Part shown: one piece after another, positions 40,191 through 42,744 of the stretch | Position numbering within the stretch: the stretch's first letter is position 1 | Layout: each line of letters opens with the position of its first letter | DNA from: Syntrophobacterales bacterium | GTDB taxonomy: Bacteria; Desulfobacterota; Syntrophorhabdia; Syntrophorhabdales; Syntrophorhabdaceae | DNA: 64,000 nt | NCBI GenBank assembly: GCA_031274925.1 | Contig: JAISPL010000023.1 | Coordinates: forward strand, 1-64,000 | Direction of reading: 5' to 3' | Position numbers and translations under genes: made by a program | The notes under the pieces: generated by a model | What the model was told of the DNA's origin: nothing | The model's input: the letters and a program-made list of their open reading frames with translations, nothing else | Database searches by the model: none

Positions 40191-40219
40191 TTGACAATGA
40201 TCTTAATTCCTTCTATTAT
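40191..40219 (+). promoter_or_regulatory. Consensus sigma-70 promoter of the aminotransferase operon
   Basis: TTGACA (40191-40196), exactly 17 bases, TATTAT (40214-40219): near-perfect consensus. The expected start, 40226-40227, coincides with the ATG of the leader peptide, so the leader message would be leaderless or nearly so. Confidence 0.8.
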
Positions 40220-40226
40220 GATACCC

Positions 40227-40301
40227 ATGAATAAAAAAATCGTAGTTTTTGGCTTTTATTACTACTTTAGGAACTCGCACCCAGGCATATTTTTGCTTTG
40301 A
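40227..40301 (+). CDS. Aromatic-rich attenuator leader peptide
   Basis: A 24-codon frame from ATG 40227 to TGA 40299-40301. Residues 7-14 are V-F-G-F-Y-Y-Y-F: three consecutive Tyr codons (TAT TAC TAC, 40257-40265) flanked by Phe codons, plus one more Phe near the end. This is like the pheA, pheST and tyrosine-type leader peptides of enteric bacteria. The stop codon lies inside the antiterminator hairpin, and an intrinsic terminator follows. The peptide has no predicted function beyond sensing charged tRNA-Tyr/tRNA-Phe through ribosome stalling. Confidence 0.75.
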   Translation: MNKKIVVFGFYYYFRNSHPGIFLL

Positions 40302-40322
40302 TAAGCAAAAAGCCATGGGTGC
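40277..40322 (+). promoter_or_regulatory. Antiterminator hairpin of the aminotransferase attenuator
   Basis: Bases 40277-40286 (GCACCCAGGC) pair with 40312-40322 with a single bulged A (40315). Inside, TTTTTGCTT (40290-40298) pairs perfectly with AAGCAAAAA (40303-40311) around TGAT. The 3' strand contains the entire 5' arm of the terminator (40311-40319), so the two structures exclude each other. A ribosome stalled on the Tyr codons leaves 40277 onward free; one at the stop codon would cover this hairpin. Confidence 0.72.
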
Positions 40323-40342
40323 AAAGGCCCATGGCTTTTTTT
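40311..40342 (+). terminator. Intrinsic terminator/attenuator before the first aminotransferase
   Basis: AGCCATGGG (40311-40319) pairs perfectly with CCCATGGCT (40328-40336) around an 8-base loop, followed by an unbroken run of seven T (40336-40342). It lies only 20 bases before the ATG of the downstream gene, on the same transcript, so it acts as an attenuator rather than an end-of-gene terminator. Confidence 0.85.
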
Positions 40343-40361
40343 GTTATTTAAAGGAGGACAG

Positions 40362-41546
40362 ATGATCATTTCCAAAGAGATTCAAAGACTGATAGAGGAC
40401 CAAGAGGGTTGGACCAGAAGGATGTTTGAGGAGGGTATCAGGATAAAGAAACTCTACGGGGAAGACAGCGTGTATGATTTCTCTCTGGGCAACCCCGATA
40501 CGGAGCCTCCGGAAGTATTAAGCAAGGCCTTGATAGATGCCGTCACCCATCCCACGGCAGGGATGCACCGATATATGCCAAACAGCGGCTATGAGGAAGT
40601 GAGGACGGATATAGCGAATTACCTTCGCGAAGAGCGTGGACTTCCTTTCACATCCGCCCACGTCTTCATGACCGCAGGATGCGCCGGTGGTCTTAACATG
40701 ATTTTAAGGAGTATATTGGACCAGGGCGATGAGGTGATCATACCCAGTCCTTTTTTCTGGGAATTCAAGAACTACATCAAAAACGCAGAGGGCATTTCGC
40801 GGTTCGTCGAGACCAAGGAAGACTTTCAGCTTGATATTGGCAAGATTGAGGAGGCCATCACCCCAAAGACAAGGGCGATACTAATTAACAGTCCGAACAA
40901 CCCCACGGGAGCCGTATATAATGAGGAAAGCTTGAAAGAACTGGCAGCTCTGCTCAACGAGAAGAGAGAGCAGGGTCAAGACATATTCATCGTCAGCGAC
41001 GACGCTTACAGGAAGATTGTCTATGACGGAAACAAACTCCCTAACCTGTTTGCGATATACGACCTCGTATTGGCCGTAACCTCTCATTCCAAAGACCTCG
41101 CCCTGCCAGGGGAAAGGATCGGATATATTGCGATCTCACCGAAGATTGAGGAATTCCAGCTCTTCGTCTCCGCCCTTACGATCACTATACGCACACTCGG
41201 ATTTGTCAACGCCCCAGCCCTCTTTCAGAGAATTGTGGGCAAATTCCAACAATACTCCGTAAGCATAGCTGATTACGAGAAAAAGAGAGATGTCCTCTAC
41301 AATACCCTCGTTGAAGCCGGTTTCGAGTGCGTAAAACCTACCGGCGCCTTCTACATGTTTCCCAAGTCGCCCATACCAGATGAACTTGAATTCGTGAGGG
41401 CTCTCCAACAGGAGGAAAGAATAATGGTTGTCCCCGGAAGGGGTTTCGGCAGGGCTGGCTATTTCAGGATTGCCTACTGTGTTCCGCTTGAAAAGATTCT
41501 TGGTTCCATCAATGGATTCACCCGGATTGGAAAACGATATTTATAA
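40362..41546 (+). CDS. PLP-dependent aminotransferase, class I (probably aromatic), copy 1
   Basis: Fold-type I aminotransferase of 394 residues. ATG 40362 follows GGAGG; an upstream in-frame ATG at 40341 lies in the attenuator and is not used. Visible motifs are FSLGNPDTEPP, TAGCAGGLNMILRSILDQGDEVI (cofactor phosphate region), NSPNNPTGAVYNEE (Asn and Pro of the active site), SDDAYRKIVYD and the PLP-lysine segment SHSKDLALPGERIGY. The C-terminal arginine region FRIAYCVP is kept. The substrate is not set by these motifs, but the Tyr/Phe leader peptide points to aromatic amino acids. Confidence 0.88.
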   Translation: MIISKEIQRLIEDQEGWTRRMFEEGIRIKKLYGEDSVYDFSLGNPDTEPPEVLSKALIDAVTHPTAGMHRYMPNSGYEEVRTDIANYLREERGLPFTSAHVFMTAGCAGGLNMILRSILDQGDEVIIPSPFFWEFKNYIKNAEGISRFVETKEDFQLDIGKIEEAITPKTRAILINSPNNPTGAVYNEESLKELAALLNEKREQGQDIFIVSDDAYRKIVYDGNKLPNLFAIYDLVLAVTSHSKDLALPGERIGYIAISPKIEEFQLFVSALTITIRTLGFVNAPALFQRIVGKFQQYSVSIADYEKKRDVLYNTLVEAGFECVKPTGAFYMFPKSPIPDELEFVRALQQEERIMVVPGRGFGRAGYFRIAYCVPLEKILGSINGFTRIGKRYL

Positions 41547-41565
41547 AAAGAGGTGAAATACGGCT

Positions 41566-42744
41566 ATATCAAAAAGCATCGCTGAATCAATGAAAAGCTC
41601 CTCTTGGATCAGGGCTATGTTTGAGGAGAGCGAGAGATTAAAAAAAGAGTTCGGCCCCGAGAATGTTTTTGATTTTACCCTCGGCAACCCTATCGCCGAG
41701 CCTCCTAAAGCGCTCAAGGAAGAACTTGCGAGGATCTGCTCACCCGCCACGATCGGCATGCACCGGTACATGGCCAACAGCGGATACGAAGAGGTACGAG
41801 AGGAGATAGCGGAATTCCATCGCGAAAAGACCGGTCTCGACTTCACGGCAAGTCATATTATTATGACCATGGGCGCGGCTGGAGGAATCAATGTTGCCTT
41901 TAAAACCCTCCTTGACCCAGGGGACGAGGTAATCGTGCTGTGCCCCTATTTTGTAGAGTTCAGGTTCTATATAACAAACCACGGCGGCATTGTAAAACTG
42001 GTGGATGTGAAGGATGATTTCCACCTCGACATAGAGAAGATCAGGGAAACAATCACCGATAAAACAAAGGCAATCATAGTAAACTCCCCTCACAATCCCA
42101 CGGGAGTAGTATACGATGAGAAAGAGCTTAAAGAACTGGCAGCCCTACTGATGGAAAGAAGGCGCAAAGGACAGCGCATTACAGTCATATCGGACGAAGC
42201 GTACAGGAAGATCATTTATGACAATATCACCTTCCCCGACTTCTTCAAAATCTATGACGACGTCGTCACTGTGACATCCCATTCTAAAGACCTCGCCCTG
42301 CCTGGAGAGAGGATCGGCTACATCGCCATATCGCCCTTGCTGAGGAATGCAAAAACCTTCATTGATGCAGCGATATTTTCCAATCGCATCCTCGGGTTCA
42401 TCAACGCCCCCGCTATAATGCAGCGTCTCGTGGGCAGGTTCCAGAAGAACAGCGTGGATATTATGGACTACCAGAAAAAGCGTGACGCAATTTATGAAAT
42501 CCTCGTAGAAGCGGGATTCGAAATAATAAAGCCAATGGGAGCCTTCTACGCCTTCCCTAAGTCTCCCATACCCGATGACATAGAGTTTGTGAAGACCATG
42601 CAGAAGCACCGCGTGTTAGGCGTCCCGGGAACAGGCTTCGGTAAAGGCGGCTACTTCAGATTGGCCTACTGTGTGGATATGGAGGTAATAGAGGGCTCCC
42701 GGAAATGTTTTAAGGAGATTGGAGCGTCGCTCCGTCGTAAATAG
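41566..42744 (+). CDS. PLP-dependent aminotransferase, class I, copy 2 (tandem paralogue)
   Basis: Close paralogue of the preceding gene, sharing FTLGNPIAEPP, NSPHNPTGVVYDEK, SDEAYRKIIYD, SHSKDLALPGERIGYIAISP and the C-terminal FRLAYCVDM. The first ATG is at 41590, without a ribosome site. Alignment with copy 1 (ISKEIQRL against ISKSIAES) shows coding sequence extending upstream to ATA 41566, which lies ten bases after AGGTG. An AUA start is therefore proposed; the conservative start is 41590. The last 35 bases overlap bioD on the other strand. Confidence 0.85.
   Translation: MSKSIAESMKSSSWIRAMFEESERLKKEFGPENVFDFTLGNPIAEPPKALKEELARICSPATIGMHRYMANSGYEEVREEIAEFHREKTGLDFTASHIIMTMGAAGGINVAFKTLLDPGDEVIVLCPYFVEFRFYITNHGGIVKLVDVKDDFHLDIEKIRETITDKTKAIIVNSPHNPTGVVYDEKELKELAALLMERRRKGQRITVISDEAYRKIIYDNITFPDFFKIYDDVVTVTSHSKDLALPGERIGYIAISPLLRNAKTFIDAAIFSNRILGFINAPAIMQRLVGRFQKNSVDIMDYQKKRDAIYEILVEAGFEIIKPMGAFYAFPKSPIPDDIEFVKTMQKHRVLGVPGTGFGKGGYFRLAYCVDMEVIEGSRKCFKEIGASLRRK

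Follow-up and report, generated by a model that had tools for sequence, protein, structure and literature searches.

The segment 40191-40342 of the DNA analysed here is, with a probability that we place at about 0.9 from sequence comparison, a ribosome-mediated transcription attenuator which senses charged Phe and Tyr tRNA ahead of a pair of aminotransferase genes. The DNA in question (the window, 64,000 nucleotides in length) comprises positions 1-64,000 of the forward strand of contig JAISPL010000023.1 from Syntrophobacterales bacterium, GCA_031274925.1, a draft assembly of 57 contigs. The assignment is made because the leader frame, antiterminator and terminator are conserved before orthologues of the first aminotransferase, with compensatory changes in their stems, and it is supported by the occurrence of kindred elements, with fitting codons, before other genes of the aromatic pathway.

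Anatomy and predicted operation of the leader

The features of the region are as follows, with the evidence for each in brackets.

40191-40219, forward strand: promoter, -35 box TTGACA at 40191-40196, spacer of 17 nt, -10 box TATTAT at 40214-40219 (sigma-70-like scan)
40227-40301, forward strand: leader frame MNKKIVVFGFYYYFRNSHPGIFLL*, 24 codons, without a Shine-Dalgarno sequence, its ATG at or beside the predicted +1 (sequence, relatives, spacing)
40248-40268, forward strand: regulatory codons TTT GGC TTT TAT TAC TAC TTT, encoding F-G-F-Y-Y-Y-F (sequence; Phe/Tyr run kept in relatives)
40277-40322, forward strand: antiterminator, outer stem 40277-40286 with 40312-40322, inner stem 40290-40298 with 40303-40311 (fold, covariation)
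40307-40342, forward strand: intrinsic terminator T1, stem 40307-40320 with 40327-40340, T run 40336-40342 (fold, terminator scan, relatives)
40343-40349, forward strand: GTTATTT, matching the sequence that follows a second terminator, T2, in a congener (comparison with L003 and L004)
40350-40357, forward strand: Shine-Dalgarno sequence AAAGGAGG of aminotransferase 1 (sequence)
40362-41546, forward strand: aminotransferase 1, class I/II, of the NF005305 / PRK06836 family, ATG at 40362 (family models, orthologues)
41560-42744, forward strand: aminotransferase 2, a paralogue of aminotransferase 1 with 57% identity (sequence comparison)

An earlier note, made from the letters of the window, had placed a TTGACA-17-TATTAT promoter, a 24-codon frame rich in Phe and Tyr, a long hairpin of outer and inner stems and an overlapping terminator in this region, and each of these is recovered where it was drawn. 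The promoter has 11 of 12 matches and ranks top among 12 sigma-70-like sites in the 6 kb scanned. The frame runs from the ATG at 40227 to a TGA stop at 40299-40301, followed immediately by a second in-frame stop, TAA, and its Phe/Tyr run is kept in relatives. Folding returns the long hairpin exactly, with A 40315 bulged in the outer stem; the fold of 40265-40345 has an energy of -32.5 kcal/mol (z -4.0), and none of 200 shuffled sequences did as well. The terminator is somewhat longer than had been supposed, in that the nine pairs of the original claim (40311-40319 with 40328-40336) form the core of a 14-pair stem, which when folded alone has an energy of -22.6 kcal/mol (z -3.5). What becomes evident is an antiterminator and an intrinsic terminator which exclude one another and which stand ahead of a structural gene, preceded by a short, translated-looking frame whose codons are those for the end product of the downstream pathway.

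The usual distance between a -10 box and the start of transcription puts the 5' end of the message at, or within a few bases of, the leader AUG. In the window the distance from the end of the -10 box to the ATG is 7 nt, with no Shine-Dalgarno sequence, such that transcription is predicted to start at ca 40226-40227, at or beside the ATG itself. The same arrangement recurs in the order: the promoter lies in the equivalent position upstream of the leader in relatives, the gap measures 6-10 nt in almost every aminotransferase leader, and no Shine-Dalgarno sequence is seen in them. Two outliers were encountered, one with a gap of 18 nt (L048) and one of 1 nt (L051), the latter probably a misassigned start. 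The order's trpB2 and DAHP synthase leaders have gaps of 6-11 nt, bar one misassigned exception. In more distant families the gap is mostly 19-37 nt and most leaders have a Shine-Dalgarno sequence. Since the ATG lies 6-10 nt past the -10 box without a Shine-Dalgarno sequence in nearly all relatives within the order, the leader is probably translated from a leaderless transcript, both in the window and in nearly all of these relatives.

The expected operation of such an element can be set out from its coordinates. Transcription would begin on the leader AUG or a few bases away from it, and ribosomes would load on the leaderless, or nearly leaderless, message. With ample Phe-tRNA and Tyr-tRNA the ribosome would reach the stop at 40299 and cover the 5' arm of the antiterminator, whereupon T1 would form and transcription would stop ahead of the aminotransferase gene. 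Were either amino acid short, the ribosome would stall on the F-G-F-Y-Y-Y-F codons at 40248-40268, leaving the RNA from 40277 onward free; the antiterminator would then claim the T1 5' arm and let transcription proceed into both aminotransferase genes. Using the general size of the ribosome footprint, the positions of the codons, of the free arm and of the stop bear out the stall-and-stop geometry that had been proposed. A conserved protector stem was sought and none was found; pairing of the antiterminator arm with the leader upstream was seen in 23 of 53 cases only, so that an untranslated leader, as judged from single folds, may default to read-through.

In this scheme the two enzymes would catalyse the final step of Phe and Tyr synthesis. 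Family models call them only 'pyridoxal phosphate-dependent aminotransferase', a name which gives no substrate specificity; the Phe/Tyr leader implies a putative aromatic specificity for both aminotransferases. Aminotransferase 2 seems to start with an ACG at 41560-41562, after GAGGTG, at which position relatives have ATG. The ACG is a likely start; the alternative is an internal ATG at 41590, the first common start codon in this frame, which has no good Shine-Dalgarno sequence.

Conservation among relatives and other explanations

Frames of this kind are not in themselves unusual. A search for frames opened by ATG, 10-45 codons long and with six or more Phe, Tyr or Trp codons within eight, gives nine starts at four places in the window, the leader being one such frame among others. 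With such frames at several places, the case has to be made by comparison with relatives. Orthologues of aminotransferase 1 occur across the order Syntrophorhabdales with 63-81% identity, the named relatives which carry them being mostly Syntrophorhabdus or deltaproteobacterial assemblies, and wherever upstream DNA is available, in Syntrophorhabdales and in related genomes of Desulfobacterota type, the orthologue is preceded by the promoter, a leader (…FYFYF…HP…), the antiterminator and the terminator. Conservation of the leader extends from the genus of the window to other families, and the same layout is found upstream of remoter homologues (51-57% identity) in Syntrophaceae and Deltaproteobacteria assemblies. 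Upstream of the Chloroflexi homologues, which lie outside the group, the leader is absent. In one contig titled as Spirochaetes (L045), possibly misbinned, there is an aminotransferase resembling those of Syntrophorhabdales (68%), together with a degenerate version of the leader.

The earlier note had staked its reading on the conservation in related genomes of the Tyr/Phe codon run and of the two competing stems. This comparison was made, and both are conserved. Nearly all of the 55 leader frames recovered from relatives have the Phe/Tyr run followed by (x)HP. In an alignment of 56 leaders, the outer stem of the antiterminator has 94.9% of its cells paired, where shuffles give 84.9%, and contains 32 double-changed cells against 9.4 in shuffles, for example a change from G-C to U-A in 15 sequences; in T1, 98.5% of cells are paired, again with compensatory changes. 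It is by virtue of this conservation that the leader stands beyond chance. A fortuitous arrangement, in which the terminator belongs to an upstream transcript and the frame is untranslated, draws some plausibility from the four places in the window with short frames rich in aromatic codons, but in the face of conservation and covariation across many genera it is barely credible.

The alternative stems alone would suit any attenuator, whether a T-box, a riboswitch or one dependent on a protein, with the Phe/Tyr frame present by chance. Against this, neither the window nor 12 related loci gave a match to any Rfam regulatory RNA, the T-box model included, at its gathering score, and no family could be assigned at either gathering or lax thresholds. 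Moreover, the conserved frame has Phe/Tyr, Trp or Leu codons matched to the gene downstream, a correspondence which makes such a regulator very improbable. Ribosome-mediated attenuation by Phe and Tyr supply is the reading adopted here.

A second terminator and its probable loss from the window

In all 58 of the other aminotransferase leaders with enough sequence for comparison, a second terminator, T2, lies between T1 and the gene. T2 is itself an ordinary intrinsic terminator, paired in 94.1% of cells and with compensatory changes of its own. The window lacks it and on that count lies outside the tandem-terminator group. The window sequence after T1 (GTTATTTAAAGGAGG) matches that which follows T2 in the congener L004 (GTTATTTCTAAGGAGG), and because of this match T2 has probably been lost from the window by deletion between two CCATGGCTTTT repeats; a collapse in assembly is the less likely origin of its absence.

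The presence of T2 bears directly on how the switch can work, since a second terminator which always functioned would end transcription whatever the ribosome did, and the gene could not be induced. One solution, which extends rather than excludes the Phe/Tyr attenuator explanation, is that the antiterminator, in taking the 5' arm of T1, frees the T1 3' arm, which would then pair with the 5' arm of T2 (the anti-T2 pairing) and so disarm T2 as well. We give this coupling, taken together with its corollary that the tandem form is ancestral and usual and that the window, having lost T2, runs on one lock, slightly less than an even chance. Beyond the universal presence of T2 in the comparable leaders, several features of the arms argue for it. 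The T1 3' arm and T2 5' arm are paired in 92.7% of cells and show double changes that match, CUC/GAG in L025 and L051 being an example. Arms from the same leader bind one another better than arms swapped between leaders (equalled in 11/20000 shuffles in the aminotransferase class and 174/20000 in the trpB2 class), while the control pairing of T1 5' arm with T2 3' arm shows no such excess in these two classes. In a phylum sample of 70 elements the excess of own over swapped arms is larger still (0/20000), and in 39 of 57 aminotransferase leaders the predicted anti-T2 is at least as stable in folding as T2.

Some of this evidence cuts less cleanly. The swap tests leave relatedness in, and the control pairing too stands above its shuffles in the phylum sample (21/20000), such that relatedness accounts for part of the signal there. 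Because the CCATGG core is a palindrome, all of the arms are able to pair with one another, and in the trpB2 class, when the arm duplexes are considered alone, the arms of T2 outbind anti-T2 in 23 of 24 cases. When duplex energies were first compared, with long flanks included, anti-T2 and the control pairing were not distinguishable (Wilcoxon p 0.23). The orientation of non-palindromic cores, in which the T2 5' arm resembles that of T1, was consistent with anti-T2 in those cases that were seen, and was left uncounted because a general preference and the model's choice of matches both confound it.

It is also possible, though somewhat less likely, that T2 in the relatives is an independent fail-safe of incomplete strength which is uncoupled to the switch. 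Its character as an ordinary terminator with its own compensatory changes would fit such a role, as would its loss from the window without apparent harm to the layout. A strong T2 without coupling would, however, hold the gene off, and the arms of T1 and T2 remain alike from family to family and from one gene class to another. The disarming of both terminators by one stall is judged more likely than a passive fail-safe, without being established.

The wider regulon and known attenuators

A covariance model built on T1 and T2 together gives hits in 49 of 60 relatives and in 124 of 395 genomes sampled from the phylum, figures which, as the model requires T2, do not speak to the frequency of one-terminator forms; several DAHP synthase leaders have one terminator only. 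The codons of these leaders vary with the gene. A WWW leader precedes trpB2, which encodes a TrpB-like enzyme, leaders with Phe, Tyr and Trp codons precede DAHP synthase, a Trp/Phe/Tyr leader precedes pheA (prephenate dehydratase), and a poly-Tyr leader precedes another aminotransferase. From reading of the translations, a Trp leader stands before a TrpE-like protein and a Leu-rich leader before a leuA-like protein with the look of the isopropylmalate synthase family. The genome of the window has two further elements in the covariance-model scan, both with Trp leaders:

C45:39131-39253, reverse strand: Trp leader ...SNWWWWQRIL with tandem terminators, before the TrpB-like gene trpB2 (L146 / L192; scan)
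C4:38180-38304, reverse strand: Trp leader with tandem terminators, before a DctP-like TRAP transporter protein (L134; scan)

The second of these leaders closely resembles the first, as if recently copied, and suggests a Trp-related transporter. Two weak matches in the same genome, at C23:68036 and C46:6335, were inspected and are not attenuators.

Other elements stand before genes of more varied kind. Aromatic leaders precede proteins which, by their translations, resemble the substrate-binding components of ABC amino acid transporters (L215, L217, L236 and L243), hinting at an aromatic specificity of the transporters. Ile-rich frames with tandem terminators precede acyl-CoA dehydrogenase-like genes (L212 and L258), which may indicate an isoleucine pathway involving an enzyme of this kind, and a frame rich in branched-chain codons, likewise with tandem terminators, precedes an acetolactate synthase-like gene (L245). 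Phe-rich leaders with tandem terminators are found before a metallo-beta-lactamase-fold protein (FFFFSF...HPCL; L125 and L133), whose link to Phe is not obvious, and ca 230 nt upstream of a thiolase-like gene (L129).

Taken as a whole, these elements could form a phylum-wide class of attenuators with two terminators in series, both opened by one stall, leaderless in Syntrophorhabdales and controlling aromatic, leucine and transporter genes, of which the window would be a natural one-lock derivative. This joint picture is a tentative one, to which we attach somewhat less than even odds.

Attenuation by a leader peptide is a textbook mechanism. In the part of the literature covered, no description was found of leader attenuation in the Syntrophorhabdales-type group, in keeping with the earlier note's remark that it is not commonly described in such genomes, nor of amino acid leaders with tandem terminators. 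Classical attenuation is extended here to a large set of anaerobes, mostly uncultured, whose amino acid regulation is poorly described. The window carries a reduced, one-terminator form of the tandem design. The leaders also hint at the specificity of aminotransferases, TrpB-like enzymes and transporters that are otherwise anonymous. Were the two terminators indeed coupled, attenuation which is tight and yet fully inducible would be achieved by a mechanism undescribed for amino acid leaders in the literature searched, with the one-terminator form in the window as a natural control.

Individual elements of the design have precedents. The ermK leader peptide attenuator of Bacillus licheniformis has two adjacent intrinsic terminators (cited in PMC4335068) and differs in sensing erythromycin through a stalling peptide rather than amino acid supply, and in belonging to a Gram-positive organism. 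The rimP-leader has a tandem second terminator with a possible antiterminator (Naville and Gautheret 2010, PMC2965389), but is no amino acid leader peptide attenuator in that description. In Sinorhizobium meliloti trpL (rnTrpL/peTrpL) the 5' end of the attenuator RNA is the AUG of the leader frame, giving a leaderless small mRNA (PMC7298713); the transcript start predicted for the window would resemble this, whereas the Trp codons, the trpE(G) operon and the alphaproteobacterial host are not. Closest in design is Phe_leader (RF01859) of gammaproteobacterial pheA, which likewise has a frame with Phe codons, an antiterminator overlapping an intrinsic terminator and an aromatic biosynthesis gene downstream. 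The window differs from it in its mixed Phe/Tyr codons, its probably leaderless message, the second terminator of its relatives and its downstream genes, which are aminotransferases in place of chorismate mutase/prephenate dehydratase, and it scores 20 bits against the RF01859 model (E 1.2), of the 55 required. The element in the window would work like a phe or trp attenuator, yet stands outside the Rfam Phe_leader family.
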